This document shows positions 1-34,157 of a stretch of DNA of 37,001 nt, piece after piece. The position numbers and the translations under genes were made by a program. Position 1 is the first letter of the stretch. Each line of letters begins with the position of its first letter. Origin of the DNA: a virus; IMG/VR virus record IMGVR_UViG_3300048929_000390, positions 1-37,001 of that record; one strand, given 5' to 3'. The notes beneath the pieces were generated by a model that searched no databases, was not told where the DNA came from, and was given only the letters and a program-made list of their open reading frames with translations.

Positions 1-384
1 GTGCTCTGGCGCGACATGGAGGTCTACAGCACGGCCGGTGTGGCGTCGAAGCTCAACGGCACCGGGTTGGAGCTCGACGACCCGGCCGAACCCGGACAGG
101 GCGACCAGGGCCGCGTGAAGCTGCTCAAGCCCGAACCCGAGCCCGTCCCCGACGCGCTGCAGGGCTTCGCCGGGCAGAACAACCCGCCCGCCACCCCCGG
201 CGCACCACCCGGGCTCGAGGACGACGGCAACGACGAGGAGGACCCGAAGGGCGGCCCCACGCCACCCCAGACGGGCCCGAAGCCGCCCAGCAAGGGGCGG
301 CCGCCCCGCCCGCCGCGCGAGTCGTGGAACACCTACCAGGCGCGCGTCCGCGAGGCCATGAGCGAGCTCGCCGGTGCCGCGTAA
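1..384 (+). CDS. Probable portal protein, C-terminal part (cut by window edge)
   Basis: The open frame runs from the first base to a TAA at 382-384 and almost certainly began upstream of the window. What remains (127 residues) is an acidic then Pro/Gly-rich tail ending in a short charged helix (ESWNTYQARVREAMSEL). No catalytic motif is visible. The portal assignment is inferred from position: it lies immediately upstream of MuF, protease and capsid genes, where the portal normally sits, and disordered Pro-rich C-termini are common in siphophage portals. It could also be the end of another head protein. The next gene overlaps it by 11 bases. Confidence 0.45.
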   Translation: MLWRDMEVYSTAGVASKLNGTGLELDDPAEPGQGDQGRVKLLKPEPEPVPDALQGFAGQNNPPATPGAPPGLEDDGNDEEDPKGGPTPPQTGPKPPSKGRPPRPPRESWNTYQARVREAMSELAGAA

Positions 385-1844: not shown

Positions 1845-2006
1845 GTGCCCTGCACCTGCTCGCACGCGCGCGACGCCCACGACCACTACCGGCCCGGCAC
1901 CGACTGCTCAGGCTGCTCGTGTCGCCGCTACCTCAACCCGTACCGGGTCGTCGGTATCGGGGCCGCGATTGCCGTCCTCCTCGTGCTCGCCCTGCTGCTG
2001 ATCTAG
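1845..2006 (+). CDS. Small Cys/His-cluster membrane protein
   Basis: The product has 53 residues from GTG 1845, with GAGGGAGG at 1833-1840 as ribosome binding site. The N-terminus carries a dense metal-binding pattern (PCTCSHARDAHDHYRPG then DCSGCSC), that is CxC-H-x4-H-x-H followed by CxxCxC. This is a motif I know from many small actinobacterial and actinophage proteins. A C-terminal membrane helix follows (VGIGAAIAVLLVLALLLI). The layout suggests a membrane-anchored zinc module facing the cytoplasm. The role is unknown. Confidence 0.6.
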   Translation: MPCTCSHARDAHDHYRPGTDCSGCSCRRYLNPYRVVGIGAAIAVLLVLALLLI

Positions 2007-2016
2007 GAGGGCCGCC

Positions 2017-3537
2017 GTGGACGTCGACGTCACCGCTTCCGGGCTGGTCGCCCTCGTACCGGACGACCCGGACGGCCTGCTCCTCGTCCCCGGCGGGGAG
2101 CCTGCCGAGCGTATGCACCTCACGCTCGCCTATCTCGGGTCGGACGTCACCGGCTGGTCGGAGGACCGGCGCCGCCGGGTCGTCGAGCTGGTCCGTGCTG
2201 CCGCCGATGGGACCGGCCCGCTCGACGCCCACGTGTCCGGGCACCTCGCGTTCAATCCGACCGGCGGCCCGCACGGTGACCGCGCCCCGTGCGCCGTCTA
2301 CCTGATCGGGGACTGCCCGGATCTCGCACCCCTCCACGACGACGTCACCCGCGCGTTGACCGCCGCCCTCGGCGATGATCTCCACCCGCAGCACACCCCG
2401 TGGATCCCGCATGTGACCGCCCGGTACGGCGACGAGGACACCACCGGGCTGTACTACGCCGGGCCGGTCCGCTTCGACCGGGTGGCCGTCCACCTGGCGG
2501 GCGAGATCACCACGATCCCGCTCGTCTCCGCGAATCTCGAGGCCGAGCTACGGCAGGCTTTCATCCACGGGTGGGCGCTCTCCGGTGGCCCGCTGACCGA
2601 GCGCGTCCGCGCTGCCTGCGTCGCGGCCATCCGACACGGCCGGGAGCACCCCCACCCGGACGTCGTAGAGACGACGATCCGGATCGGGTCCCTCGAAGGC
2701 ACCATGGCCGCGGTGTTCGACCGCCGGGAGAAGCTGTACGAGCACCACATCGCCCAGGTGCAGGCCGCCTGGCATGCCGCGGTGGCCGGGCTCGACATCC
2801 CCGCCGCCGTGTCCCGGTTCATGGGCCGCATCGGGCAGGCCCGCGAAGCCGACACAGACCAGGACCGGCAGGACACCGACGCGATCGCCCGCGCCGAGGC
2901 GCAGCGGCTCGTGCACGACGTCATCGCGAACCCGGCCGCGCGCACCTACCAGGACATGGTCACCGCGCTGCAGCGCGCCATCGTCGAGGCCCAGGCCGAG
3001 GGCCAGGCCGGGACCGTCGGGCTGATCGCCGAGCACGCCGGACAGTCCGGCGTCGACTTCGACCTCGTGTTCCACGACGCCCTGGACCAGCTCGAACGCC
3101 TCGGCGAGTCCTGGGGTGAGGCGCAGGGCTGGGTGTCCCGCGTCGTGGCCGGGAACGCCAACGACGGCGGCGCCGCCCTCGCCCGCGAGGTCCGGGACGG
3201 CGGCGGCTACGACGACTACGTGCGCGCGGTCACCGACGTGATCGACGGCCCCGACACGCGCGCCGTGTCCACGCTCGTCGACCTCGCCATGAATCAGGCC
3301 TACTCGCGCGGCGCCCTCGCCCTCTACGACCGCGAGGGCATCCGCACCGTCGACTACTCCACCGCGGGCGGCGGCAACGTGTGCCCCACCTGCCTGGAAT
3401 ACGAGTCGAAGAACCCGTGGCCGGTCGACCAGGCCCCCGCACCGGGGTGGCATCCGTGGTGTCGGTGCGTGCTCATGCCTGCCAACCCGCTCGAAGCCAT
3501 CCCGCCGGGCATCGCCCGCTACGTCGGCGGGTCCTGA
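2017..3537 (+). CDS. 2H phosphoesterase fused to MuF-like minor head protein
   Basis: The product has 506 residues from GTG 2017, preceded by AGGAGG (2005-2010). Residues 1-175 form a 2H phosphoesterase domain (the 2'-5' RNA ligase/cyclic phosphodiesterase superfamily), with both signature motifs H34-L-T36 (MHLTLAYLG) and H132-V-T134 (PHVTARYG). These are the two catalytic His-x-Thr pairs, about 98 residues apart as usual. Residues about 180-506 are a MuF/SPP1 gp7-like head morphogenesis domain. Its C-terminal signature is complete: C456-x2-C459 ... H479-P-x-C482-x-C484. MuF proteins sit near the portal inside the capsid, and some are ejected with DNA. The fusion therefore implies that a phosphodiesterase is packaged in the virion. 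Substrates known in the superfamily include 2',3'-cyclic RNA ends, 2-5A and, for Acb1, cyclic oligonucleotide defence signals; the substrate here is not deducible. Confidence 0.85.
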   Translation: MDVDVTASGLVALVPDDPDGLLLVPGGEPAERMHLTLAYLGSDVTGWSEDRRRRVVELVRAAADGTGPLDAHVSGHLAFNPTGGPHGDRAPCAVYLIGDCPDLAPLHDDVTRALTAALGDDLHPQHTPWIPHVTARYGDEDTTGLYYAGPVRFDRVAVHLAGEITTIPLVSANLEAELRQAFIHGWALSGGPLTERVRAACVAAIRHGREHPHPDVVETTIRIGSLEGTMAAVFDRREKLYEHHIAQVQAAWHAAVAGLDIPAAVSRFMGRIGQAREADTDQDRQDTDAIARAEAQRLVHDVIANPAARTYQDMVTALQRAIVEAQAEGQAGTVGLIAEHAGQSGVDFDLVFHDALDQLERLGESWGEAQGWVSRVVAGNANDGGAALAREVRDGGGYDDYVRAVTDVIDGPDTRAVSTLVDLAMNQAYSRGALALYDREGIRTVDYSTAGGGNVCPTCLEYESKNPWPVDQAPAPGWHPWCRCVLMPANPLEAIPPGIARYVGGS

Positions 3538-3554: not shown

Positions 3555-5279
3555 GTGGCTCGAACGCTCGCGTACGTCTACGGCACCGCCGTGAAGCCCG
3601 GGGTGTCCCGGAACGGGCGGCTCTACACCGCCGACATGATCCGGGCCGCGGTCGACGAGGCACAAACCCGGCTCGCCGACGGCCCGGACATCACCCCGAT
3701 GACCGCGATGACCCACCACGACGCCGAGGACGACAGCGAGAAGATCACCGGCCGTCTCGACCAGCTCACCTGCGACGAGTCCGGGGCCGCCCGGTACCGG
3801 CTCGCCCTGGTGGACAACCCGGCGGCCCGCTCGATCCTCCCGCTGATCGAAACCGAGGGCGGCGCACCCCCCGTGCTGCGCAACGTGAGCATCCGGGGGT
3901 CGTGGAAGGGCGAGATCCGGCGGGTCACCCACGAGGGCCGCACCGTCACCACCGCCGACGGGCTCTCCCTCGACGGGCTGGACTTCACCAAGTCCCCGGG
4001 GGTGGACGGCGCGAACATCGACCGTGTCGTCCGCGTCGGCGCCAGCCCGCGGGAGACCGCCGCCGACGACCGCCGCATCGTCGAGTCGGCCCCCACGGAC
4101 GCCACCGTGCAGCTCGTCGAGGCCGCCCCGTCGCCGTCGCGGTGGGCGGATCCGGGCTACCTCGGGGAGAAGGCCCTCCCGCTCGACACGATGGGGCAGG
4201 CCCGGGCGGCGTGGGCGGCGCTGCGCGAGCAGCACGGCTACACCGACAGGCAGCGCAAGCGGGTCCGCGAGCGTGTGCGGAAGGCCCTCGCCGAGCATGG
4301 CGCCACGATCACCCGCGAGGGCTGGGTGATGACCACCGAGCCCGTCCGCGAGATGGAGCTGTGGCCGCAGACGGCGGGCTGCTACCGGGTGTGCCTGGAC
4401 AACGGCACCGTCGACATCTCCGTGTCCTCGTACGGGGTCGACCCGGCCGACCTCGAGTTGGCGGCCCGCAAGGCGATGGACGGCGCGATCGCCGCGCTCA
4501 ACGCCGTCGACCCCGACCAGGACGGCGACATCGACATCCCCGACGCCGACACCGGCGACGAGGAGACCACCGCGCGTCGCCCCGACGACGACGCGATGGA
4601 AACGACCTCTCCACCGGCCGCCGACCAGGCGACCGGCCAGACCGCACAGGAACAGGAGCCCCGCGTGTCGGAGCAGACCCCCACGGCGGCCGGTACCCCG
4701 GCCGCACCCGCCGCCCAGGCGGCCCCGGCGCCCGCCGCGGCCGCGCCGGTCGAGAACATCGAGCCCCCGGCCCCGACCGCCGTCGTCACCCCGGCCGTCG
4801 ACGAGCCCCGCCTGTCCCTCGGGCAGGTGAAGGACCTCTTCGCGTCCTTCGCCGGCGCTATCGGTGGCCTCGGCGCCCAGGTCGCGGCACCCGCAGCGGC
4901 CGTCGAGGCGGCCCCGGCTGCGGCGGCCCCGGTCGCCGAGGCGGCCCCCGCGCCCGCCGCGGTGCAGGAGACCGAGGAGCAGCGCATCGCCCGGCTGGTC
5001 GCCGAGGGTGTCAAGGCGGCGCTGCCGGGCGCCGTGCAGGCGCACGTCGAGGCGAACGGCCCGACCCGGAAGGGCCTCGTCGAGTCCACGTCCGGTGTGC
5101 TCACCGCCCCGGGCACCGGCGCGGCCGCCACCAGCACCGCCGCGGGCGACTTCGGGTACCCGGAGGGCTGGACCGGGCCGCTCAAGCCGCTGCACGAGTA
5201 CACCCCGGAGGAGTGGCGCCAGCACGTGCGCCCGCAGACCGCCGGTGCCGTCCTCGGCGCCAAGGCCGCCGGGCAGTGA
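3555..5279 (+). CDS. Capsid maturation protease with C-terminal scaffold region
   Basis: The product has 574 residues from GTG 3555, preceded by AGGAGGAG; the open frame extends upstream to 3381 but overlaps the MuF gene. Residues 1-170 resemble phage prohead proteases. They contain SRNGRLYT, the His pair in MTHHD (H54/H55) and the block NVSIRGSW with S112, giving a plausible His-Ser catalytic set as in the T4 gp21/herpesvirus-type protease fold. A helical domain follows at about 195-260 (QARAAWAALREQ ... VRERVRKALAEHGA). The C-terminal 200 residues are Ala/Pro-rich and acidic, then a conserved-looking end (PLHEYTPEEWRQHV), as in scaffolds. A second start inside the gene (4665) could express the scaffold alone. 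The product should assemble the procapsid and cleave the scaffold during maturation. Confidence 0.75.
   Translation: MARTLAYVYGTAVKPGVSRNGRLYTADMIRAAVDEAQTRLADGPDITPMTAMTHHDAEDDSEKITGRLDQLTCDESGAARYRLALVDNPAARSILPLIETEGGAPPVLRNVSIRGSWKGEIRRVTHEGRTVTTADGLSLDGLDFTKSPGVDGANIDRVVRVGASPRETAADDRRIVESAPTDATVQLVEAAPSPSRWADPGYLGEKALPLDTMGQARAAWAALREQHGYTDRQRKRVRERVRKALAEHGATITREGWVMTTEPVREMELWPQTAGCYRVCLDNGTVDISVSSYGVDPADLELAARKAMDGAIAALNAVDPDQDGDIDIPDADTGDEETTARRPDDDAMETTSPPAADQATGQTAQEQEPRVSEQTPTAAGTPAAPAAQAAPAPAAAAPVENIEPPAPTAVVTPAVDEPRLSLGQVKDLFASFAGAIGGLGAQVAAPAAAVEAAPAAAAPVAEAAPAPAAVQETEEQRIARLVAEGVKAALPGAVQAHVEANGPTRKGLVESTSGVLTAPGTGAAATSTAAGDFGYPEGWTGPLKPLHEYTPEEWRQHVRPQTAGAVLGAKAAGQ
4665..5279 (+). 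CDS. Nested in-frame scaffold protein (internal start)
   Basis: An in-frame GTG at 4665 follows CAGGAG (4653-4658) with a 6-base spacer, the same kind of start used by genes in this window. It would give a 204-residue protein beginning MSEQTPTAAGTPAAP: an Ala/Pro-rich segment, a short helix (LSLGQVKDLFASFAGAIGG), a second Ala/Pro linker, a helix (QRIARLVAEGVKAALPG) and the C-terminal capsid-contact-like end. Nested protease/scaffold genes are established in lambda (C/Nu3) and many other phages. Expression from this start is inferred, not shown. Confidence 0.5.
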   Translation: MSEQTPTAAGTPAAPAAQAAPAPAAAAPVENIEPPAPTAVVTPAVDEPRLSLGQVKDLFASFAGAIGGLGAQVAAPAAAVEAAPAAAAPVAEAAPAPAAVQETEEQRIARLVAEGVKAALPGAVQAHVEANGPTRKGLVESTSGVLTAPGTGAAATSTAAGDFGYPEGWTGPLKPLHEYTPEEWRQHVRPQTAGAVLGAKAAGQ

Positions 5280-5314: not shown

Positions 5315-5391
5315 CCCGCACAACCGTTTCACCCCGGACCGCCAGCCCTGCGCTGGTGCCTCTCAGGCAGTGATGGTCGCCCCCTCTCCCC

Positions 5392-5421
5392 GCCCCCGCG
5401 CCGACCCTGGCCGGGGGCTTT
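5392..5421 (+). terminator. Second stem-loop upstream of the capsid gene
   Basis: GCCCCC (5392-5397) pairs with GGGGGC (5413-5418) around a 15-base loop and is followed by TTTC. It lies about 30 bases before the capsid start. The 5280-5447 interval thus holds two terminator-like hairpins. No convincing -35/-10 promoter is visible between them, although a capsid promoter would be expected there. Confidence 0.4.
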
Positions 5422-5447
5422 CGCATGCCCAAGAGGAGCCCATCCCC

Positions 5448-6821
5448 GTGACCGAGCTTCGCGAGGCCCTGACCGCCGCCGGTGCGTCCGCCCTCATCCC
5501 GAAGATCATCAGCCCGATGCTGCTCGAGTACCAGCGGCGCTACTCCCCGCTGGTCCGCTCGATCCCGTCCCTCAAGTGGGACTCGGACACCTACTACTTC
5601 AACCAGCGCACCGTGAACCCCAACGGCGGGTTCGTGATCGACGGCGGCGCGCGGGTCGTGTCGAACTCCACGTACGTGCAGAACAGCTTCCAGATGAAGC
5701 ACCTGCAGATCGTGGGCGCGATCACCGGCTACGCCGAGGAGGTCACCCGCCAGGTCATCGGCGACCTCCGGGCGCGCGAGATCGAGGGCTCCATCCAGGG
5801 CCTCTACTGGGACACCGAGCACGCCCTGCTGTGGGGTTCGGCGGGCGCAACCCAGTTCGGCGCCTACCCGCAGTTCGACGGGCTGGACTCGCAGGTGTCG
5901 CAGTACTCGGGTGACGGCAAGAACTGCATCGATGCCACCGGCGCCGCCAACTCGGGTGCCCTGTCGCTGGCTCTGCTCGACGAGCTCGCAGACATGGTCG
6001 AGTCCAACGCCGCCATGTCGGTGTTCGACTCGTCCTGGCAGTTCGTGATGTCGAACTCGGCGGTGTCCAAGATCGCCCAGCTGCTCACCAACCAGCAGCG
6101 GTTCGTCGACCAGGTCGAGGTCGCGGCCGGGCTGCTCGTGCCCACCTACCGCGGCATCCCGCTGGTCAAGTCGTCGATGCTGTCGACCCGGTCCTTCCAG
6201 GTCGGCACGGTGACCACCACGCCCGCCACCACCGGTGGCACCCTCGCGGCGAACACGTACTACTACCAGGTCAGCGCCGTGATCGCCCGCCAGGGCGAGA
6301 TCGCCGCGTCCGCCGAGGTGTCGCAGACCACCACCGGCGGCACCTCGACGGTCACCCTGTCCTTCCCGACCCCGACCGGCCTCGACGGGCTGCAGCCGAC
6401 CCTCTACAAGGTCTACCGCGGCACCGCCACCGGCGCCGAGACCCTGATCGGCGTCGTCGACGCCACCGTCGGCCTCGCGGCGGACGGCATCACCCCCGTC
6501 CCGACCACCTCGATCGTCGACGACGGCACCAAGCTGACGCCGAAGAACGGGTCGTCGCAGCCCGCCCAGGTCCCGCCCGCGTACGTCGGCGGGAACACGG
6601 CGAAGAAGGCGCCCAGCGCCGGGCGTGAGCCGATCTACCTGATGGCCCGCGACGAGAACTTCATCTGCCGCCCGTACGTGCGGGAGGCCGTCCCGGTCGA
6701 CATCTACCCGACCACCTCGTCGCCCGACTCGCTGCCCTACGCGCTGGTCAGCGACACCTGCCTGGCGGTCCGGGCGCCGAAGTACATCGGCGCGCTGACC
6801 GGCGTGGCCGTCTCGCTCTGA
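5448..6821 (+). CDS. Major capsid protein (HK97-type) with FN3-like insertion
   Basis: The product has 457 residues from GTG 5448, with AAGAGGAG (5431-5438) as ribosome binding site; the upstream ATG at 5370 has none. The N-terminal helix (LREALTAAGASALIPKIISPMLLEYQ) and the core (GGFVIDGG, YAEEVTRQVIGD, WQFVMSNSAVSKIAQLL) fit the HK97-fold capsid proteins of siphophages. Position after the protease/scaffold supports this. Residues about 252-360 form an extra beta-rich domain with FN3-like features (NTYYYQVSAVIARQGEIAAS ... LYKVYRGTATGAETLIGVV), after which the capsid fold resumes (REPIYLMARDENFICRPYVR). Such insertions usually project from the capsomer and may replace a separate decoration protein. 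No signal peptide, Cys pairs or unusual codon use stand out. Confidence 0.85.
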   Translation: MTELREALTAAGASALIPKIISPMLLEYQRRYSPLVRSIPSLKWDSDTYYFNQRTVNPNGGFVIDGGARVVSNSTYVQNSFQMKHLQIVGAITGYAEEVTRQVIGDLRAREIEGSIQGLYWDTEHALLWGSAGATQFGAYPQFDGLDSQVSQYSGDGKNCIDATGAANSGALSLALLDELADMVESNAAMSVFDSSWQFVMSNSAVSKIAQLLTNQQRFVDQVEVAAGLLVPTYRGIPLVKSSMLSTRSFQVGTVTTTPATTGGTLAANTYYYQVSAVIARQGEIAASAEVSQTTTGGTSTVTLSFPTPTGLDGLQPTLYKVYRGTATGAETLIGVVDATVGLAADGITPVPTTSIVDDGTKLTPKNGSSQPAQVPPAYVGGNTAKKAPSAGREPIYLMARDENFICRPYVREAVPVDIYPTTSSPDSLPYALVSDTCLAVRAPKYIGALTGVAVSL

Positions 6822-17311: not shown

Positions 17312-20062
17312 ATGGCTCGCATCGGTCGGAGCTACTCCGCCCGGCCGGCACGCGGGGTGTCGCCGGGGGTGCTGGCGGCGCCGGTCACTCCTGGGCTGGC
17401 GTTCGATTCGGCGCCCGCCGTGGACTCGGTGTCGTGGCGGATGCCTGCGCAGTCCCGCACCGTGCAGGACGTCGCCGGGGCCACCGATGTTGCGGGGGCG
17501 CTCAAGCTCGCCGCCCCGCCGGTGGCGACGCTGCCGAACCCGAACTGGCCTGTCGTGGGGTTCGACGTGGACTTCACCCAGGGGCCGCCCGGTGTGCCGG
17601 GGGCGGCCCGGCAGTCCCTCAACCGGGTTGGGCGGCGCCTGGTGGTGCGGTCGTGGTCGACGTCGCGCGGACGTCAGTACGAGCTGGACCAGGTCCAGGC
17701 CGGGACGTGTGAGATCGACGTGCCGGACCCGCTGGAGATGCTGAACCCGGACAGCCCGTCCTCGCCGTACAACGTCGGGGACAACGCGGTCACCGCGTAC
17801 CGGGCGGTTCGGGTGTGGGGGATGTGGCCGAATCAGCCGGGCAGCGGGAACATCTTCAACCCGACGCTCGGGGTCGACTACCGGCCCGACTTCGAGGCTG
17901 CGGGTTCGGCGGATCCGGCGGCGCCGTGGGTGGTGCTCGATGAGGCGACGACGCGGACGGTGGTGACCGAGCAGCACCACTCGGGTTCGTCGTCGCTCAA
18001 GGTGGTGCAGGCGGCGGCGGGCGCGGGGCATGGGGTGGCGATCGTGCCGCCGACGGTGCCCGCGCTCGACTACACGTGGTCGGTGTGGGTGCGCCCGACG
18101 GGTGGGTGCACGGTGATGGCGCAGGTCGTCGATGCGGGCGGGGACACGACGCAGTCGGCGGTTGCGGCTGCACAGAACGTGTGGACGCGGATCTTCTTCA
18201 ACTGGCAGACGGTCGACACCGCCGAACAGATCATCATCTTCGGTGCAGGCGTCGCGAATCCGACATTCTACGTGGATGACTACCAGTTGGAGTTCGGGCC
18301 GTCCCTGAGCGACGCCACGCTCACCGGCCCCGTGCTCTACCCGCAGTTCACCGGCTACGTCGAACGCTGGCCCACCAACTACGACATGTCCGGCACGCGG
18401 GCACAGCGACCGCTACAGGCCGTCGACGCCCTCGCGATCCTCTCCCGGACCGCGATCGCGCAAAGCTACGACGCCGAGATCGCCGCCGACACCCCCATGC
18501 TGTACCACCCGATGAGCAACCAGGTCAGCCCGAACACCGGTGCCGAGCTGGGCAAGGGCCCCAACGGCTTCACTCGGTGGGTGATCCCCGACGGCGGGTC
18601 GATCAACTGGGGGTCGGACGCCGCACCCGACGGCACCCCCGCCGTGACGTTCGCCAACCAGAACCCAGGCGGCGACCCAGCCAGGGGCGAGAGCAAGGAC
18701 GCCCCCGCCGTGTTCCCCTCGACCGGCGGCTCCACCGAGATGACCGTGCAGGGCGGGTTCGTCTCACTGGACACCGCAGGCGGGTTCATGTGGGAGCTGT
18801 GGGTGCGCTACAACGCGGGCACCATCCAGTTCGGCACCCTCGAACTCCTCGACGTCGCAGATCCGCACGGCCTCAACTGGAATGTGCCCACCGTCGCCGC
18901 GCTCGGCTACGGCGGGCAGCTGCGGTTCGCGCTCCGGACCGGGATCGCCGGGTCGGGCGCCTCATACGGGCTCGCGGACTCGTTGAGCTTCGAGACGTTC
19001 GACGACGGCGAGTGGCACTACATGTGGCAGGCCGTCGTCGGCGCCCGCTGGTATGTCGCGATGGACGGGGACGCCCTCGGCTATCTCTCGATCACCCCGG
19101 GCGGTTCCGCGGGCGGCTACCCCCGCTTCCTCGGGTTCAACACCCTGTACCACGAGGCGAGCAGCCAGTTCGGGGAGCCGCAGGCCCAGGGGTCCGTCAG
19201 CAGGTGGGCCGTCTACAACTATGCGTGGTCGATCGCCGACATGACGGCGCGGCGGCTCGCGCACTACCAGCGCGGCATCGGGTACAAGGGCGAGCGGTCC
19301 GGTGCCCGGGTGGCGCGGCTGCTCGACAAGTACTGGAAGGGGCCGCGCGGCTACATGGGCGGCTACGCCCGAATGGCCCCGGATTTCTCCTATGACACCC
19401 GGACGATGCTCGACGTCCTACAGGAGATCGGCGAGACCGAACGGGCGGTGCTGTTCGCCGACGTGGCGGGCGCCGTCCAGTGGCCCGACCGCGATTACCG
19501 CTACCTCGACCAGGAGCCGGTGGCCGTGTTCGGGGAGGACCCCGACAACGACGAGTCGGAGCTGCCCTACTCGGACTACTCGACCGACCACGACCCCACG
19601 TACGTGTTCACGCAGGCGAACCTGACCAGGCCGGACAACAGCAACATCGCCCCGATGGTGGACCAGGCCGCTCAGGACCGCTACGGGCAACGGATCCTCA
19701 CCCAAGAGCTGCAGGTCAACACCGACTTCGACGTCGAGCAGGCGGGCATCTTCTACCTCGCCCGCTATGGGGCGCCACGTACCCGGATCACCAAGCTGAC
19801 GCTGCGTCCGGCGGCGAACCCGTCGCTGTGGCCGGTCGTGCTCGGCCTCGAGCTGCAGCAACGGGTGAGGGTGTTCCGCCGCTCCCCCGCCTTGTCGTTC
19901 TCTCACGACTACTACGTCGAGAAGATCGAAATCAAGGTGGTCGCCGACACGTCGGAGTGGACCGTGGACCTGCAGCTCTCCCCCGTGTTCGTCGACTCGG
20001 CGTGGGTGCTCGAAGACCCGACGCGCGGCGTGTTGGGCCAGACCACCGTCCCGATCTTCTAG
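17312..20062 (+). CDS. Large tail protein with lectin-like domains (central fibre/baseplate)
   Basis: The product has 916 residues from ATG 17312. The N-terminus (LAFDSAPAVDS, then RTVQDVAGATDVAG) contains two copies of the repeat found dozens of times in the protein at 27332. A tail-hub-like domain follows (VGFDVDFTQGPP, YELDQVQAGTCEIDVPD, AYRAVRVWGMWP). Residues about 205-330 look like a CBM4/9-type carbohydrate-binding module (HHSGSSSLKVVQ, YTWSVWVRPTGGCTV, FYVDDYQLEFG). Residues about 385-645 contain a LamG/concanavalin-like lectin (FMWELWVRYNAG, DDGEWHYMWQAVVGARWYVA, SRWAVYNYAWSIADM). The last 270 residues resume a conserved tail domain (TMLDVLQEIGETERAVLFAD, YYVEKIEIKVVAD). It is probably the tail-tip protein that anchors receptor-binding proteins. 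Confidence 0.7.
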   Translation: MARIGRSYSARPARGVSPGVLAAPVTPGLAFDSAPAVDSVSWRMPAQSRTVQDVAGATDVAGALKLAAPPVATLPNPNWPVVGFDVDFTQGPPGVPGAARQSLNRVGRRLVVRSWSTSRGRQYELDQVQAGTCEIDVPDPLEMLNPDSPSSPYNVGDNAVTAYRAVRVWGMWPNQPGSGNIFNPTLGVDYRPDFEAAGSADPAAPWVVLDEATTRTVVTEQHHSGSSSLKVVQAAAGAGHGVAIVPPTVPALDYTWSVWVRPTGGCTVMAQVVDAGGDTTQSAVAAAQNVWTRIFFNWQTVDTAEQIIIFGAGVANPTFYVDDYQLEFGPSLSDATLTGPVLYPQFTGYVERWPTNYDMSGTRAQRPLQAVDALAILSRTAIAQSYDAEIAADTPMLYHPMSNQVSPNTGAELGKGPNGFTRWVIPDGGSINWGSDAAPDGTPAVTFANQNPGGDPARGESKDAPAVFPSTGGSTEMTVQGGFVSLDTAGGFMWELWVRYNAGTIQFGTLELLDVADPHGLNWNVPTVAALGYGGQLRFALRTGIAGSGASYGLADSLSFETFDDGEWHYMWQAVVGARWYVAMDGDALGYLSITPGGSAGGYPRFLGFNTLYHEASSQFGEPQAQGSVSRWAVYNYAWSIADMTARRLAHYQRGIGYKGERSGARVARLLDKYWKGPRGYMGGYARMAPDFSYDTRTMLDVLQEIGETERAVLFADVAGAVQWPDRDYRYLDQEPVAVFGEDPDNDESELPYSDYSTDHDPTYVFTQANLTRPDNSNIAPMVDQAAQDRYGQRILTQELQVNTDFDVEQAGIFYLARYGAPRTRITKLTLRPAANPSLWPVVLGLELQQRVRVFRRSPALSFSHDYYVEKIEIKVVADTSEWTVDLQLSPVFVDSAWVLEDPTRGVLGQTTVPIF

Positions 20063-21381: not shown

Positions 21382-23439
21382 GTGCCCGACCTGATCGCCG
21401 TCTACAGCAACGCGGACAACGGCGGCGCCACACTCGACGTCCTGAACGTCGAAGCCTCCGACCAGCTCGTCGCGCTCGTCGGGAACGGCTACTCCACCGC
21501 CGCCCTCGGTGTCGCCGACGACGCCGACAACGCCCCGTGGACGCCCGTGGGGGCCCGCCTGGGCTCCCCGGAAGCCCCCGACTACGAGAACTTCAACCTC
21601 GCCGGCTGGTCGAAGGTGTGCACCGCCGCCGGCACGCACACCCTGTCCGTGACCGCCCCCAACGAGAACGCGCTCGTCGTCCTCCACGTCCGCGACGGCG
21701 GGGCGATCGACGGCACACCGACCGACGTCGTGGTCAGCCAGGGCGCCCCCCCGGGCACTACGCAGACCGTCGGCGCGGTGTCCCCCACCGGAACCGACGA
21801 CCTCCTCGTCGCCGTGTTCGGCGGCATCCAGTTCGGTGCGGCGATCACCTACACCGCCCCGGCCGGTATGGCGATCCCCACCAACGGGCAGGTGTCTGAC
21901 CCGTCCGGGCACGTCACCCTCGCCGTGGCCGTCCAGACCCTGACCGCGGCCGGTAGCACCGGGGCCCGCTCGGCGACGGCGGACCGGGCGCCCGCCTTTG
22001 GGGCGGCGTCGAAGCTGTTCGCGATCCGCACCACCACCGCGGGCGGCGGCGACGGCGGTACCGGTGGCGGCGGTACTGGTGGTGGGGGCTCGAACACCCC
22101 GATGGCGGCGCTGCCCACCTTCGTCGACGGGGTCCTCGTCCACGCAGCCCAGCTGACGACCATCGCCGACGACGTCGACACCCTCGCCGTGTTGACGACC
22201 GGGAAACACGCCGCGTCCGCCCCGACCGGGCGGCCCCTGGCCCGGCTGCTGGCCAGCCCGATGACCAGCAACCAGAACGAGCTCAAGACGATCACATGGT
22301 CGGGTGTCGACGCCGGATTCGACCCCGACGGCATGTGGAGCTCCGGGTCACCCGACCACATCACGATCGCCACCGCAGGCTGGTACGACGTCGTCGTCCA
22401 GTGCGCCTGGGGCAACATCGGTGCAGGGTCGATGTCCGCCTACATCGCCCTCGACACCCCGACGAACATCGTCGCGGTCAAGGACGAACCGGCCCGGATC
22501 GGGAACCCGATACGGGTGCAGGTGGTCCTCTCGGACTTCCTCCCGGCCGGGACGAAGGTGTACGGGCTGATCAGCCAGTCCGCCGCGGACGGCGCGGCCA
22601 CGGCCCCGTACTGGGGTGGCACGTGGATGTCGGCGGTGTGGGACTCCGCGGGCGCCACAGTCGGGGCGTCCGGGGGAACGTCGGGGTCCGGGAACGCGGC
22701 AGGGGGAGGCAACACCGGGACCGGGTCGGGCACCGGAGGCACGGGCGGCGGGTCGACGGGCGGGTCAGCCGACGACGGTGTCCAGGCCGCGGTCACCCAG
22801 GGCTGGGGCAGCCCGATCGGCGGGGACGAGTTCGGGTATTCGGGCGACCCCGACCCTGCGAAGTGGGACGTCTACAACACATTCGGGCAAACAAACGGGA
22901 CGGGTGTCCGCTACCCGGAACAGTGTTCCGTCGCTAACGGAATGTTGACCATCACCGGCTCCGCCGACAATCACGGCGGCGCGGTCTCCTACAAACACGA
23001 CAACAACACGCGGTATCACCGGTGGGAAGCGCGGATGCGCCACTACCGCACCGGCGGCGGCGGGGCCGACGACTACCACCCGGTGCTGCTCATGTGGCCG
23101 GACTCGGAGAACTGGCCCGACGACGGCGAACAGGACTTCTCGGAGTCGAACGTCGGCGACAGCACCTTCAGCATCTACATCCACTATGGCGGCGGCCAGG
23201 ACGCCCAAGAAGGAAACGCCGTCGACCTGACGCAATTCAACAACTATGCGGTGGAGTGGATTCCCGGCCATGTCCGGGTGTACCTGAACGGCACGCTGAT
23301 CTTCGACGACACCAACGGCTACGTACAGACCGCGTCGCCGATGCACCCCACCGCGCAGCTCGACTCAGGCAGCGGCCCCGGGGCCCCCATGAACCCCTGC
23401 CGCATGGACGTCGCCTGGTACCGCCAGTACGCGGTCTGA
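21382..23439 (+). CDS. Multidomain tail protein ending in a GH16-type glycosidase
   Basis: The product has 685 residues from GTG 21382. Residues 1-217 are a strand-rich domain (SDQLVALVGNGYSTAALGV, HTLSVTAPNENALVVLHV, GTDDLLVAVFGG). After a Gly-rich linker, residues 241-424 repeat the C1q-like unit (MAALPTFVDGVLVHAAQL, DHITIATAGWYDVVVQCAW, GTWMSAVWDSAG). A second Gly/Ser/Thr linker leads to residues about 475-685, a GH16-like beta-jelly-roll glycosidase. Its catalytic motif is E583-Q-D585-F-S-E588 (ExDxxE), with nucleophile and acid/base glutamates both present, and it has GGDEF and YAVEWIPGHVRVYLNG blocks. GH16 enzymes cut beta-1,3 or beta-1,4 glucans and galactans, so this is a probable depolymerase for host surface polysaccharide; the substrate is not deducible. 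Confidence 0.75.
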   Translation: MPDLIAVYSNADNGGATLDVLNVEASDQLVALVGNGYSTAALGVADDADNAPWTPVGARLGSPEAPDYENFNLAGWSKVCTAAGTHTLSVTAPNENALVVLHVRDGGAIDGTPTDVVVSQGAPPGTTQTVGAVSPTGTDDLLVAVFGGIQFGAAITYTAPAGMAIPTNGQVSDPSGHVTLAVAVQTLTAAGSTGARSATADRAPAFGAASKLFAIRTTTAGGGDGGTGGGGTGGGGSNTPMAALPTFVDGVLVHAAQLTTIADDVDTLAVLTTGKHAASAPTGRPLARLLASPMTSNQNELKTITWSGVDAGFDPDGMWSSGSPDHITIATAGWYDVVVQCAWGNIGAGSMSAYIALDTPTNIVAVKDEPARIGNPIRVQVVLSDFLPAGTKVYGLISQSAADGAATAPYWGGTWMSAVWDSAGATVGASGGTSGSGNAAGGGNTGTGSGTGGTGGGSTGGSADDGVQAAVTQGWGSPIGGDEFGYSGDPDPAKWDVYNTFGQTNGTGVRYPEQCSVANGMLTITGSADNHGGAVSYKHDNNTRYHRWEARMRHYRTGGGGADDYHPVLLMWPDSENWPDDGEQDFSESNVGDSTFSIYIHYGGGQDAQEGNAVDLTQFNNYAVEWIPGHVRVYLNGTLIFDDTNGYVQTASPMHPTAQLDSGSGPGAPMNPCRMDVAWYRQYAV

Positions 23440-27331: not shown

Positions 27332-30300
27332 GTGGCGATCCTCGGCCGCAGCATCCCCCGCCGCCTGCGGGCCGCGCCCGTGGTGGCCTCGCAGGTCCAG
27401 GCGAATCTGTCCGCCTCGGATTCGGCCCCGGCCACCGACACCGCGACCCGCAGTGTGGCGACCCGTGCCCGGTCGGCCGCGGACACGGCCGGGGCGACGG
27501 ACACAGCGGGCGACCGGGCTGTGCCCGCCAGTGGACCGCTGACCGCATGGAACACGGCGCTCTCGGCGGCCCAGGTAGGGACGGGTCGGGCCCGGCTGCT
27601 TGTCATCGGCGACTCCGTCGGGGAAGGGCAGGGGGCGTCCGTCCGGGCCAACCGGTGGGCGAGCCTCACGGTCGCGGCGATCCGGGCACGGCTGGGCCTG
27701 GCCGCGGGCGGCGTCGGCGCCATCCCGGCGAAGTACCAGGTGTATGGCCCCGATTCCCCTTGGGGCACAACCGGGATCGCCGAAACTGGCAGCAGCAATA
27801 CGGACTTCTGGTCCGGACCGTTCGGCTTCAACACTCGACTACTGGGCACCACCGCCACCCTCACGTGGACGGTCACCGGCACCTCGGCGCAGCTCTGGTA
27901 CGGCGCCTACAGCGGCGCCTCCCAGTTCACCTACTCCGTCGACGGCGGCTCCCCGGTCACCGTGACCGCCGACAACGGCGGTGCGCCCACCTGGACGCCG
28001 ACGACCATCACCCTCGGCGCCTCCGGGTCCCACACCGTGCAGGTCGCCACGAACGCAGCGCAGAACGCGTACGTCGGCGGCCTCGTCGTCTTCGACGGCG
28101 ACGCCACCAGCGGGATCACGCTCTACGACGGGGCCCGCGTCGGCATCACCGCCCAGCAGTATGCGAGCGGCTTCGACGCGGTCGGGTCGAACACGCTCCC
28201 GGCCACGTGGGATGCCCTCAGCCCCGACCTCGTGCTCATCGAGCTGGGGCTCAACGACTGGTCGGCGAACACCACGACGGCCGCGTACATCGGCTACCTG
28301 ACCACCCTGGTCGGATGGGCGCGCGCCCTCACGAAGGTGCCGTCGATCGCCCTGTTCATCGCGCACAACGTGTCCCCGACCGCCGCGACGGCCAGCCCGA
28401 CGTGGGCGGCGTACGCCGCCGCCATCAGGAGCTACGCGGCAACCGACGGAAACCTGCTGGTCATCGACGCCGAGACGTGGATGTCCGGCACCGGCGGCCC
28501 CGGAACCACCGACTGGACGTCGGACTATCACCCGACCGACGCCGGACACGCCATCATCGGCGGCCTCGTCACGAACGCGCTGCTCGGCACGTCGGGGTCG
28601 CATTTGGCGACCGCGTCGGACTCGGCCCCGGCCAGCGACTCCGCTACCCACGGAGCGGTACTCAAGTCCCGGTCGGGCGCCGACACGGCGGCCGCGACGG
28701 ACTCCGTAGCCCGCACGACCACGGCGGGCCGCTCCCCCGTCGACTCGGCGGCCGCCACCGATGCGGCCTCACGGGCGGCCACCTCGTCCATCCGCACCGC
28801 ATCGGACTCGGCCCCGGCCGGCGACGCGGTGGTGCGGGGCGCCCAGGCCAGCACGATCGGCGCGACCGACTCGGCCCCGGCGGCGGACACCGCGACCCGC
28901 TCGACGATCACCCGGGCCCGGACCGCGACCGACACGGCCCCAGCCGCCGACACGGCCACCCGGGCGGCCCTGCTCGTCACCCGGACCGGGGCCGACACCG
29001 CTGCGGCGACCGACAGCGCCACACGCTCGGCGGACACGTGGTCTAGGACGGCCGCCGACACCGCCGCGGCTACCGACACAGCCAGCCGGACGGCACTGGC
29101 GGTCAGCCGCACCGGTGGTGACCTCGCGCCGGCGACGGATACCGCCGCCCGTGCAGGCTCGATCTTCTCCCGAACCGGCGGGGACACCGCGGCCGCGACC
29201 GACTCGGCCACCCGGTCTGCTCTGACCCCCGCCCGGGTCGCAACGGACACCGCCGCCGCGACCGACTCGGCGGGCCGGGCCCCGTTCTCGGCCGCCCGCA
29301 CGGCCGGTGACACCGCGGCTGCGACCGATGTCGCAAACCGGGGTGGCGCGACATGGTCCCGCACTGCGACAGACTCCGCCCCGGCCGTGGACTCGGCGGC
29401 CGACCAGCTCGGCGGCGCTACGACAGCATCCGATGTCGCGGCGGCCGTCGACGTCGCGGCACGGGCCACGATGTCGCCGCTACGGAGCACCACGGACACC
29501 GCCCCTGCGGTCGACGGTGCTACACCGGCTGTCCGGCTGTCCCGCACCGTCACCGACACCGCGCCAGCGACAGACAGCGCGGCCCGGAGCACGGTGGCAT
29601 CCCGCCAGGCAGGCGACTCCGCCCCGGCCGTGGACTCGGCGGGACGAGCAGCAACGACGAGATCCCGGTCGGCCGCCGACTCGGCGCCCGCCGTGGACAC
29701 GGCGGGGACGTCAGCGGCGGGCGGCCAGTTCGTCGTCGACCACGCCCCGGCCGTCGACACCGCGGCCGGGCAGGTCACCGTCGACCGGCAGGCCGCCGAC
29801 ACCGCGGCGGCAACGGATCAGGCCGGGCGCCCCCCCGAGCTCGGGGCCCGGACCGCCGACGACCAGGCCGCCGCGGTCGATGCGGCGACGGCGGCCGCCT
29901 CGATCGGGCGGACCGTCGCCGACACCGCGGCGGCGCTCGACGGGGCGACCCGAGCCCCGGACGGTGTCGGCCGCACCGCCGTGGATGTCGCAGCTGCAGT
30001 CGACGTGGCGTCCCGGGCTGCGCTGTCCCCCACCCGGGGCAGCGCCGATTCGGCCCCGGCGCTCGACGTCGCGGGCCGGGCCGTGCAGCTCCAACACACG
30101 GCGCAGGACGTCGCCGTAGCGGTCGACGTCGCCACCCGGGCGAACCTCTCGACCAGCCGCGACGTCACCGACTCGGCCTCGGCGACACCGGCCGCCACCC
30201 GCAGCCCGCTGTCACGGTCGCGGACCGCCCAGGATTCGGCCCCGGCATTCGACAGCGTGTTCGTACCGGCGGGGCTCCCCCGGTTTGCATCGGATGTCGC

Positions 30301-30757
30301 ACCGGCCTCCGATGTCACCACGGCCGCGGTGTCGCTGTCGCGGCTGATCGCCGATGCCGCGACGGCAGCGGACACGGTGCTCCGTCACCTGGTGGTGTCC
30401 CGCACCGCCTCCGATGCGGCCCCCGCAGCCGACCAGGCGGGGCCCACCTCGACGAGGGCCTTTACCGCCGCGGATGTCGCGGCCGCAACCGATGTCGCGG
30501 TGAGGGCCCCGTCGCAGCGGGGTCGGGCGGTCGTCGACCAGGCCGCAGCCCTCGACACGGCCACCCGGATCCACGCGGTCACACGGACCGCTACCGATGT
30601 GGCGGCCGCGCGGGATTCGGCGGCCCCGTTCGGGGTCGGCCCGGGCCCGGTCGGTGCTCTGCGCGCAGGCCAGCCCTACGCGACCGGTCTCCCCCGGGCC
30701 GGACGCCCGTACGCCCGCGGCCTCTACCGGGCCGCGACACCGATCACCACCATCTGA
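27332..30757 (+). CDS. Tail-fibre protein: SGNH esterase with long 19-21-residue repeat region
   Basis: The product has 1141 residues from GTG 27332, with AGGAGG at 27316-27321. Residues 27-66 hold two copies of the repeat. Residues about 85-420 form an SGNH/GDSL hydrolase with block I VIGDS (S95), block III GLND (G306-N308-D309) and block V DYHP (D398, H400). This is an esterase fold that removes acyl groups from polysaccharides or lipids. A carbohydrate-binding-like beta insert (TLTWTVTGTSAQLWYGAYSG) lies inside it. Residues about 427-1098 contain 33 further repeats of consensus RTxxDTAAATDxAxR plus 4-6 residues. The final 40 residues are Gly/Pro/Arg-rich (LRAGQPYATGLPRAGRPYA). The repeats probably form an extended fibre that holds the esterase away from the tail. 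Spontaneous repeat loss is plausible. Confidence 0.75.
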   Translation: MAILGRSIPRRLRAAPVVASQVQANLSASDSAPATDTATRSVATRARSAADTAGATDTAGDRAVPASGPLTAWNTALSAAQVGTGRARLLVIGDSVGEGQGASVRANRWASLTVAAIRARLGLAAGGVGAIPAKYQVYGPDSPWGTTGIAETGSSNTDFWSGPFGFNTRLLGTTATLTWTVTGTSAQLWYGAYSGASQFTYSVDGGSPVTVTADNGGAPTWTPTTITLGASGSHTVQVATNAAQNAYVGGLVVFDGDATSGITLYDGARVGITAQQYASGFDAVGSNTLPATWDALSPDLVLIELGLNDWSANTTTAAYIGYLTTLVGWARALTKVPSIALFIAHNVSPTAATASPTWAAYAAAIRSYAATDGNLLVIDAETWMSGTGGPGTTDWTSDYHPTDAGHAIIGGLVTNALLGTSGSHLATASDSAPASDSATHGAVLKSRSGADTAAATDSVARTTTAGRSPVDSAAATDAASRAATSSIRTASDSAPAGDAVVRGAQASTIGATDSAPAADTATRSTITRARTATDTAPAADTATRAALLVTRTGADTAAATDSATRSADTWSRTAADTAAATDTASRTALAVSRTGGDLAPATDTAARAGSIFSRTGGDTAAATDSATRSALTPARVATDTAAATDSAGRAPFSAARTAGDTAAATDVANRGGATWSRTATDSAPAVDSAADQLGGATTASDVAAAVDVAARATMSPLRSTTDTAPAVDGATPAVRLSRTVTDTAPATDSAARSTVASRQAGDSAPAVDSAGRAATTRSRSAADSAPAVDTAGTSAAGGQFVVDHAPAVDTAAGQVTVDRQAADTAAATDQAGRPPELGARTADDQAAAVDAATAAASIGRTVADTAAALDGATRAPDGVGRTAVDVAAAVDVASRAALSPTRGSADSAPALDVAGRAVQLQHTAQDVAVAVDVATRANLSTSRDVTDSASATPAATRSPLSRSRTAQDSAPAFDSVFVPAGLPRFASDVAPASDVTTAAVSLSRLIADAATAADTVLRHLVVSRTASDAAPAADQAGPTSTRAFTAADVAAATDVAVRAPSQRGRAVVDQAAALDTATRIHAVTRTATDVAAARDSAAPFGVGPGPVGALRAGQPYATGLPRAGRPYARGLYRAATPITTI
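28608..30630 (+). repeat. 33 degenerate 57-63-bp in-frame repeats
   Basis: The array encodes units such as RTGADTAAATDSATRSADTW, most 20-21 residues long. Invariant or near-invariant positions are the two aspartates six residues apart (Dx(A)x3D) and the alanines between them; 'SAPAVD' and 'TAAATD' are the main variants. Two more copies lie at 27407-27520 and two at the N-terminus of the protein at 17312. All are in frame, so they are coding repeats. Confidence 0.8.
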
Positions 30758-32484: not shown

Positions 32485-33006
32485 TCACCTCGCCAGGTGG
32501 AGCTCCGCGAGCACAGTGAGAAACTCGGACCGGTTGGGGCTGCCGACCTTCTCCCGCTTGGACTCGAGGACGGCGATCTCCTCGGCCGTCAGACGGAGCT
32601 GCTTGGGTGTGGGCCTGTCGACGGCCTTCCGTGCGCCGCGAGGGCGGGCGGGGAGCCCGGAGTCGTCCCCCGGCACCCCCTTGTCGAAGCGGTCGTCGAG
32701 CTCGTGGTGGTGGGCGCGGAAGGCGTCGAGGAACCACTCCGACCATGACCGGCCTGCGAGGTCGCGCTCGATGGCTTCGACGACGGGGAGCGGGAAGTAG
32801 GCGGTGTACTGCAGCTTCGTGCGCCCTGCGGGTTTCTCGGCGGGCTTGCGTTTCGGCGGGCGGGCCCGCTTCTCGGGCTCCTCCCCCACCGGTTCCCGTT
32901 CGGGGGCGGGCGCCGCTGTCTGCCGCCTCGGCGGGAGTGCGAGCCCGGCCGCCCGGGCGGGTGGCGGGGACGTCATCGCGGACAGGTCGCGGGGGTCCTG
33001 CGTCAT
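32485..33006 (-). CDS. ParB-like ribbon-helix-helix partition protein
   Basis: The product has 173 residues from the ATG at 33006-33004, which overlaps the parA stop by 4 bases. The N-terminal 60 residues are disordered and rich in Pro, Arg and Lys (KRARPPKRKPAEKPAGR). Residues 62-99 (KLQYTAYFPLPVVEAIERDL, then SWSEWFLDAFRAH) and 133-171 (PKQLRLTAEEIAVLESKREK, then NRSEFLTVLAEL) each read as strand-helix-helix, i.e. two ribbon-helix-helix units. Small RHH proteins (ParG, omega) serve as centromere-binding partners of ParA and as autorepressors. It probably binds the 11-bp array upstream of parA. The function rests on gene order and fold. Confidence 0.65.
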   Translation of the reverse strand: MTQDPRDLSAMTSPPPARAAGLALPPRRQTAAPAPEREPVGEEPEKRARPPKRKPAEKPAGRTKLQYTAYFPLPVVEAIERDLAGRSWSEWFLDAFRAHHHELDDRFDKGVPGDDSGLPARPRGARKAVDRPTPKQLRLTAEEIAVLESKREKVGSPNRSEFLTVLAELHLAR

Positions 33007-33908
33007 GGCGCCACCTCGACGCGCTCGGCGAGACGGGCGGTGAACTCCTGGGCGAGCGCCGCATAGTCGGCGGCCAGCCCGGCGGCCGATGCGGCGAGCC
33101 GGGGCCCGGCGTCGTCGGCCCGGTGCCGCCCGGCTCGCAGCTGCGCGAGCCGGGCCGCCTTCGCGGCGGGCAGGTCGGCCTCGACTTCGTGGACGAGACG
33201 GCCGACGTCGCGGGTGTTCACGGCGGCCGCCTCGACGTGCCGGATCCGGGCGTCGAACACGAGGTCGGGGTTCCCCAGGTCCCGCGCCACCGCTTTGCGG
33301 GTGTCGGCGGCGATCCGCTTCGACGTCACCCCGGTCCCGAACAGCACCACGCCGAGGAGCTGCACGTACGGGTTGCTCGACTGGCGGACGGCGGCGAACA
33401 GCTCGGAGACCTCGACGAGCCCGTCGAGGGATGCGGCGTCGCTCTTGGTGGGGATGACGACGTACTCCGACGTGGTCAACGCCATGCGCTGCACCGTCTC
33501 CTCCCCCGGCGGGCAGTCCAACAGGATGAGGTCGTAGTTCCCGGCGAGCGGTGCGAGGGCCTGCTCGACGGCTGTGTCGACGCTCTCGCCGCGGATGGCC
33601 CGGGAGTAGAGCGCGCCCGCCATCTCGCCGATGACCTTCCCGCCGGGGATGACGTCGAGGTTCGGTCGCACGTTCTCCACGGGTGCGAGTGGGGCCCCGG
33701 TGGTGGCGGCGACGAACATCGACCGACCTAGATCATTTCTGGGGTCATTTTTGATGCCGAGGTCGCGGGCCAGGTTTCCCTGGCGGTCGAGATCGCACAG
33801 CAGGACCCGATACCCGGCGGCGGCGATCAGCCCACCGAGGTTCGCGGTGAGCGACGTCTTCCCGACGCCACCCTTCCCGTTGATGAAGGACACGGTGCGC
33901 TCGATCAT
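33003..33908 (-). CDS. parA: ParA-type partition ATPase
   Basis: The product has 301 residues from the ATG at 33908-33906, preceded on its strand by AGGAG; the open frame runs further upstream to 34145 through the repeat array, but that part is low-complexity. It has a deviant Walker A motif, KGGVGKTS, with signature lysine K12 and K17; a Walker A' (VLLCDLDRQGNLA); and a Walker B (LILLDCPPG). There is no N-terminal helix-turn-helix, as in small (type Ib) ParA proteins that work with RHH partners. It uses ATP binding to move DNA on the nucleoid. A ParA in a phage suggests that the prophage is inherited as a plasmid, as in some mycobacteriophages with parABS. Confidence 0.85.
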   Translation of the reverse strand: MIERTVSFINGKGGVGKTSLTANLGGLIAAAGYRVLLCDLDRQGNLARDLGIKNDPRNDLGRSMFVAATTGAPLAPVENVRPNLDVIPGGKVIGEMAGALYSRAIRGESVDTAVEQALAPLAGNYDLILLDCPPGEETVQRMALTTSEYVVIPTKSDAASLDGLVEVSELFAAVRQSSNPYVQLLGVVLFGTGVTSKRIAADTRKAVARDLGNPDLVFDARIRHVEAAAVNTRDVGRLVHEVEADLPAAKAARLAQLRAGRHRADDAGPRLAASAAGLAADYAALAQEFTARLAERVEVAP

Positions 33909-34036
33909 GGCGGGGAGCTCCTGGGGGGCTTGTGGGGTGCGGGTGGCAGGTGGGCCGGTTGCGCGCGGAAAGTACACCACCACTCCCCCACCGGTTGGCG
34001 ACAGACACGCGGCACGTGTCCCATCCATGACGGGCC

Positions 34037-34157
34037 GACACGCGGCACACTGGCCGTCTGTCGGCCACCACCGTGCCGCCCGTTGCCCGCATGTTGGCCG
34101 CCTGTTGGCCGCTGGTGTGCGGCAGGGTGGCAGCCGGTCGGCCACTCACTGGCTACC
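34037..34157. repeat. 11-bp phased repeat array (candidate centromere/operator)
   Basis: From 34048 to 34157 the sequence divides into ten adjacent 11-mers resembling TGTTGGCCGCC. In all ten, base 7 is C; base 6 is G in nine and base 10 is C in nine. The two best units, TGTTGGCCGCC and TGTTGGCCGCT, are at 34092-34113. A weaker unit lies at 34037-34047. The 11-bp spacing places every unit on nearly the same face of the helix, as in the iteron centromeres bound by RHH partition proteins. Confidence 0.6.

Follow-up and report, generated by a model that had tools for sequence, protein, structure and literature searches.

Fusions of 2H phosphoesterase domains to phage head proteins have been described previously. 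Iyer et al. (2017; PMC5512222) reported 2H domains joined to MuF or portal proteins, and proposed that they act as RNases or degrade nucleotides used in defense. For 2H–MuF and 2H–portal fusions, a later paper (2022; PMC9503650) suggested packaging in the head and injection, directed against nucleotide signaling. Other effectors are found on MuF proteins as well: the toxin of MuF polymorphic toxins lies in the C-terminal region (PMC5576092), and a MuF–VIP2 fusion occurs in Microbacterium phages (PMC7302621). Among the titles and abstracts listed by the literature searches, whose coverage of subscription journals was small, none reported an experimental test of a 2H–MuF fusion.

Here, we analyzed a virus record of 37,001 bases (the window), classed as linear, a class that often denotes a fragment. 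One of its genes pairs a 2H domain with a MuF-like part, and resembles the published 2H–MuF and 2H–portal fusions in both domain pairing and proposed roles (PMC5512222, PMC9503650). Like the MuF toxins and MuF–VIP2, it places an effector domain on a MuF protein. It differs from the fusions of Iyer et al. in that its 2H domain occupies the N-terminus and can be absent from members of one MuF family, and in that many of its relatives are fused to the head protease; an N-terminal 2H may also be among the architectures in figure 5B of that paper. A sequence-only reading of the gene had suggested that the enzyme is delivered against host immunity, an idea that is already in print (Iyer et al. 2017; PMC9503650). 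What is new is therefore one more member of the group, its extent in actinophages, evidence that the 2H domain is an optional module, and a clade with cysteine in the second motif.

A predicted 2H domain precedes a MuF-like region

The ORF at 2017–3537 (+) starts with GTG and encodes 506 aa. Its features are as follows.

2005..2010, + strand: Shine–Dalgarno-like AGGAGG, 6 nt before the GTG at 2017 (sequence)
2017..3537, + strand: 2H–MuF fusion gene, 506 aa (ORF, Pfam)
2038..2526, + strand: predicted 2H phosphoesterase domain, residues 8–170 (PF13563, PHROG 2659/18402, AF2, Foldseek/VIA)
2116..2124, + strand: first putative catalytic motif, H34-L-T36 (HLT; sequence)
2410..2418, + strand: second putative catalytic motif, H132-V-T134 (HVT; sequence)
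2536..3171, + strand: helical region joining 2H to MuF, residues 174–385 (AF2 full-length model, alignments)
3175..3477, + strand: MuF-like region, residues 387–487 (PF04233 below cut-off, PHROG head-morphogenesis families)
3382..3393, + strand: CPTC, residues 456–459, with C456 and C459 (sequence, homologue alignment)
3451..3468, + strand: HPWCRC, residues 479–484, with H479, C482, R483 and C484 (sequence, homologue alignment)

We regard this anatomy, a MuF-type minor head protein whose N-terminal part is a 2H domain, as highly probable. An 8-kb contig (L002; IMGVR 3300048917_000373) encodes a 2H–MuF protein and neighbors identical to those of the window.

The 2H half was recognized both by sequence and by fold. 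PF13563 (2_5_RNA_ligase2) matches the ORF above the Pfam cut-off (E 7.4e-7) and the isolated domain at E 1e-7; among five records of 2H–MuF relatives, it is present in four, that of L041 having no match. PHROG 2659 and 18402, two families that contain this 2H domain, match as well. AF2, run with an alignment of 69 rows (the window plus relatives), modeled the N-terminal 180 residues with a mean pLDDT of 94.4. In Foldseek searches of the PDB, the top matches were Thermus ThpR (1iuh, E 5.2e-6), human Usb1 and Deinococcus CPDase (7.4e-6 each), and Acb1 followed at 2.1e-4. VIA-align gave the best score to 5h7e, a solved 2H enzyme (Z 15.6, rmsd 3.1 over 155), with 1iuh at Z 15.2, the CPDase/ThpR group at Z 15.6–14.1 and Usb1 at Z 14.6 (rmsd 2.7 over 151, identity 11%); lower scores were seen for rotavirus VP3 (12.8), AKAP18 (12.4), Acb1 (10.0) and CNPase (5.8). 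Rows no more than 1 Z apart count as tied, and the Z of Acb1 is lowered by the smaller size of that protein. A profile search of the PDB returned ThpR-type chains at E 1e-4 and Acb1 at just E 0.12. When the window domain was the sole query, phmmer recovered none of the 2H chains in the PDB up to E 1. The model of the full-length protein is weaker (pLDDT 77, pTM 0.58); it matches 2H proteins and several predicted viral minor capsid proteins. Together, the modeled fold and the two HxT motifs place the N-terminal domain in the 2H phosphoesterase superfamily. Given the Foldseek and VIA-align rankings, it has a 2H fold that is not specially Acb1-like. Of the three enzymes that the sequence-only reading had named for comparison, ThpR scored best, Acb1 was weaker, and CNPase was far off.

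Orthology to ThpR or to Acb1 is not supported. ThpR and LigT are among the best structural and profile matches, and share a similar first motif (LHxTLxxLG); yet LigT Arg130 corresponds to a tyrosine here, which led us to reject ThpR orthology, and the window domain is fused to a phage head protein. Usb1 has the same fold but only the 11% identity given above, and no phage head context. Acb1, an anti-CBASS nuclease, has in common with the window a 2H fold and an HxT/HxT tetrad, and its described features include the base-stacking residues Y12, W74, F107 and W147, as well as E141 and a C-terminal lid (PMC9117128). The Pfam Acb1 family (PF23474) gave no match to the window domain at E≤0.01, and matches 4 of 69 2H family members (best 3e-4); with this and the lower fold rank than ThpR and Usb1, Acb1 orthology was set aside. 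CNPase likeness was likewise discarded, at Z 5.8. PADLOC did not assign the window domain to any family, and gave one weak AbiH match among the 69 family members.

For the C-terminal part, MuF identity is a good case but not a closed one, resting on signature residues, gene order and PHROG. PF04233 (Phage_Mu_F) matches at E 5e-5 with 24.4–26.2 bits, below the cut-off of 29.6, and PHROG head-morphogenesis families match at E 6.7e-5 to 1.3e-3. The Cys/His signature said to be complete is indeed so: C456, C459, H479, C482, R483 and C484 are invariant in all 35 aligned homologues, near-copies included. Pfam MuF matches at E≤0.01 were obtained for 9 of 16 relatives, and PF04233 was found in 14 of the 33 carrier records searched. 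It was not found in the records of L036 and L037, which are full-length relatives of the window protein, and hhalign of the window MuF part against well-scoring actinophage MuF domains gave no significant match. Thus, of the proposed fusion, the 2H half is supported by Pfam and fold, and the MuF half is weaker by Pfam, with a signature and gene order that fit. Only 19 residues follow the Pfam MuF match, which stops at residue 487 of 506, and a C-terminal toxin of the MuF polymorphic type was rejected on these grounds. The enzyme-like domain is N-terminal, as had been noted, as opposed to the C-terminal toxins of MuF proteins.

Gene neighborhood and host

Three neighboring genes bear on the head context.

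1..384, + strand: possible C-terminal end of a portal gene that is truncated where the contig begins (from position alone)
3555..5279, + strand: probable head maturation protease/scaffold gene (AGGAGG before GTG 3555; homology to a gene of L017)
5370..6821, + strand: major capsid protein (PF17236 SU10_MCP, E 3.4e-6; PHROG 752, E 2e-35)

The product of 3555..5279 shares 43% identity across 147 aa with its L017 counterpart, whose own PHROG match is to family 207, head maturation protease (3e-6); the window candidate, read from 3549, had no PHROG match. Pfam and PHROG scans of 1..384 gave no match either. In L017, a portal gene lies upstream of 2H–MuF (PHROG 12, E 8.8e-28), and a portal is also upstream in L037. 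The gene cassette around 2H–MuF is kept in L036, L037, L041, L044 and L017. We infer that the window gene likewise sits between portal and capsid genes, its portal being assigned from position.

Downstream, Pfam and PHROG recognize tail tube, tape measure, a GDSL-lipase ORF, amidase, a ParA-like protein and an HTH-DUF5753 regulator. The GDSL match is in an ORF of 1141 aa located 3' of the tail genes (27332–30757, +), and two tail-region proteins (17312–20062 and 21382–23439, +) have CBM_4_9 or weak GH16-like matches. The ParA-like partition ATPase (33003–34145, –; PF13614, PHROG 164) has beside it a small gene without a family match (32485–33006, –), and this pair, at 32485–34145, may reflect a prophage maintained like a plasmid. 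The HTH regulator with DUF5753 (34909–35763, –) is a repressor candidate. DUF5753 is mainly actinobacterial. This regulator and the hosts of relatives suggest an actinobacterial host for this soil phage.

Conservation of predicted catalytic residues

A profile of nine 2H domains recovered 113 ORFs from the collected loci, and filtering at 95% identity left 89 rows, some of them fragments; near-copies remain among split matches (L058/L059 and L060/L061). One relative collection kept 80 of 162 relatives. Both HxT motifs pointed out earlier are present in the window, and both histidines are conserved in relatives. Among rows of the filtered alignment with a residue at the position, H34 and T36 were each found in 84/84 and H132 in 83/83. 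The five most conserved positions of the domain are T36, H34, A12, L13 and H132, as expected if catalysis is under selection. Checked by letters, both HxT motifs occur in 11/11 2H–MuF loci (of 15, with the window standing for its twin, L116).

Position 134 (n = 83) is T in 55 rows, C in 23, A in 2, and I, R or Ser in one each. When only T and C rows are counted on a quick tree of the domain (77 rows), a single change accounts for the Thr-to-Cys replacement. The resulting HxC group, of single origin on this tree, comprises 23 filtered loci (e.g. L073, L095 and L099), mostly MuF–2H–protease and 2H–protease fusions.

In LigT, Phe48 (H43+5) is a base-stacking residue, and Arg130, after the second HxT, binds phosphate (PMC5283653). 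By spacing, the equivalent of Phe48 is Tyr39, whose column holds Y or F in 83/84 rows. That of Arg130 is Tyr137 (H+5), in a column with 77 Y, 2 F, 2 E, 1 Q and 1 V; arginine is absent from all 83 rows.

The 2H domain is optional within the MuF family

Five loci (L036, L037, L038, L041 and L044, with L037 and L038 near-copies) encode the same 2H–MuF protein, at 43–44% identity over 501–518 residues, and have homologues of the window's next gene and capsid gene downstream of it. L016 and L017 match the window in the 2H domain (45–46%), in the first part of the next gene and in the capsid gene, but not in the MuF part, which fails to align; their 2H–MuF pairing may therefore be a separate one.

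With the MuF part alone as query, we found 36 viral loci. A 2H domain precedes MuF in 15 of these, none was detected in 19, and the remaining 2 are cut by the contig start and retain a 2H tail. All but one of the 19 have at most 61 residues ahead of the MuF part in open frame; the exception, L150, has 142 residues, unlike 2H. The helical region (174–385) is mostly kept in relatives without 2H, as judged from alignments. A search for 2H elsewhere in 20 records (18 of MuF loci without 2H, plus L133 and L143, with that of L141 left out) gave no match, although it had no positive control and missed the two 2H tails of L133 and L143. On a MuF tree of 36 rows, 2H presence changes 6 times, at least 4 of them forced by starred branches, versus 11.7 in shuffles. 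Here, the two cut loci and L017 were counted as carriers, and the tree omits L116, twin of the window, and L151, which is cut; the row of L017 is long and uncertain, and the window's own placement is not resolved. These data show that 2H is an optional module within the window's MuF family. The occurrence of this MuF protein both with and without 2H favors an accessory effector over a structural part.

Distribution and fusion partners in actinophages

Tblastn matched the 2H part in 279 phage records (E≤1e-5); with a 194-residue query covering that part, 336 records were matched at E≤1e-3. By host, the 336 fall to Mycobacterium (196), Gordonia (118), Streptomyces (17), Rhodococcus (4) and Mycolicibacterium (1). 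Actinophage matches are mostly 33–43% identical to the window domain, and no phage record covers 80% of the whole window protein in such searches. Six bacterial genome contigs (Mycobacterium, Nocardia, Micromonospora and three Streptomyces) carry the domain as well. Actinophage carriers are often annotated 'RNA ligase', others 'capsid maturation protease and MuF-like fusion'. The former label probably derives from the Pfam name 2'-5' RNA ligase; judging from sequence, the products are phosphodiesterase-like.

Genes under either label have the same domain as the window and, among cases examined, are mostly near head genes, but their arrangements differ from that of the window. The domain forms a solo gene near head genes in RedWattleHog, Colt, Phrappuccino and E3, lies inside the head maturation protease gene in EMoore, Galadriel (annotated RNA ligase) and GTE6, and follows MuF in the order MuF–2H–protease in Abt2graduatex2 and Mischief19. 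The window's 2H–MuF is a fourth arrangement. Of 85 filtered loci, 72 have in their fetched flank, on the same strand, a homologue of a head gene (portal, MuF, protease or capsid), and none was detected there in the other 13. MuF or protease shares the ORF with 2H in 45/85. Once the nine loci from which reference proteins had been taken are set aside, these counts become 63/76 and 40/76. The region from portal to capsid plus 6 kb on each side makes up ∼34% of the Abt2graduatex2 genome, 37% of Galadriel and 15% of E3, against the observed 72/85. On the quick 2H tree (77 rows, after eight split or weak-match loci were dropped), the fusion partner switches ∼14 times; architecture labels were assigned by hand, and 35 of the rows are lumped as 'solo or other'. 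In Rhodococcus phage Finch, a solo 2H gene (L115, 4896–5411) has queuosine genes nearby and seems to fall outside the head-gene slot.

Possible function and alternatives

Our proposal is that the product of the window gene is a minor head protein of the MuF type whose N-terminus bears an optional 2H phosphodiesterase domain. This protein would be made late with the head, built into it near the portal, and carried into the cell along with the phage DNA. There, the 2H domain would hydrolyze a nucleotide phosphodiester, with H34 and H132 as putative acid and base. As to the substrate class, our guess is host-defense signals made of oligonucleotides or cyclic oligonucleotides. That the protein is a virion component seems probable. 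An anti-signal role for the 2H domain is possible, at somewhat less than an even chance, and the same tentative standing applies to the whole chain, a virion-borne 2H enzyme that may act on host nucleotide signals. Both the conserved residues and the optional occurrence of the domain are consistent with a functional effector. One or two protein copies per virion may be too few for signal clearance. No virion proteomics of this 2H family was found in the literature searched. Mass spectrometry of virions is described in PMC4524720, where the phages studied include the carriers GTE6 and GMA2 (the latter a carrier by structure match, in which the matched protein was equated with Orf10 from its length). 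A virion phosphoesterase of Thermobifida phage P318 was considered as family evidence and dropped, its ORF being in a nucleotide-metabolism cluster, with no link established.

The domain might instead be an RNA-end enzyme or RNase. It would then open cyclic phosphate ends (2',3') of RNA, or cleave RNA in the manner of Usb1, and so repair nuclease-cut RNA or damage host RNA. The nearest folds are RNA enzymes (CPDase/ThpR, Z 15.6–14.1; Usb1, Z 14.6), ThpR-type chains match by sequence profile (E 1e-4), and RNase or 2-5A-degrading roles were proposed by Iyer et al. (PMC5512222). An RNA_ligase match is present in the virus of L036, the window's closest relative on a long contig (115 kb). But that family (PF09414) was found in only 1 of 31 carrier records, and RtcB and KptA in 0/31 each. 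These records are the window, 20 viral records and 10 phage records, with GMA2 in the set; many are fragments, ten are full phage records, and PF09511 was not in the search, whose controls for RNA_ligase, RtcB and KptA were positive in 6/14, 9/14 and 3/14 genomes, respectively. The tRNA repair role suggested earlier is disfavored because the usual RNA-repair partners are mostly absent from carrier records. Also, Tyr137 takes the place of LigT Arg130 by spacing, with no arginine in 83 rows. On balance, we consider an RNA-end enzyme or RNase rather unlikely.

Two other explanations concern the head itself. An enzyme tethered to head-assembly proteins could act late inside the cell, canceling a defense signal raised during head building. 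In line with this, the fusion partner varies (MuF, protease or solo) while the head-gene slot is mostly constant, and the prohead protease of phage Bas13 is reported in a review to interact with a CBASS sensor (PMC12409349). Late expression would not need fusion to a portal-bound protein, however, and we judge this scenario improbable. Even less probable is a structural or scaffolding 2H domain without catalysis. The position within or near head genes in 72/85 loci, and the clade in which Cys replaces the second Thr, would suit such a role, but both histidines and the first Thr are present in every filled alignment row, and 19/36 loci have the MuF protein without a 2H domain.

Returning to the virion-borne enzyme, a broader version is that 2H is a mobile counter-defense module, repeatedly plugged into the actinophage portal-to-capsid slot, acting when a nucleotide alarm is set off by head assembly and, from the virion, at entry, with changed specificity in the HxC clade. 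This is a long shot. If the main proposal is true, hundreds of sequenced actinophages, many with genes labeled RNA ligase, carry a phosphodiesterase tied to head genes, perhaps in the virion. Natural MuF proteins with and without 2H offer a ready comparison, and thus make the published proposal of an injected enzyme directly testable.

Additional features of related loci

In 4 of 9 proteins scanned (L003, L045, L048 and L051), the 2H ORF contains a region of ∼80 residues that matches PHROG 6439; L040 and L047 have a YW-containing stretch that resembles this region by eye. In Gordonia phage EMoore, a gene for a histidine-triad nucleotide-binding protein (L004, 2695–3057) lies between the MuF and protease–2H genes. 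Arthrobacter phage Mufasa8 has a MuF-like match at 4807–5115 (MN586027.1/NC_049478.1), in a gene that the two records label differently, one as portal protein and one as MutT/NUDIX hydrolase; this may be a further case of a nucleotide enzyme on a head protein.
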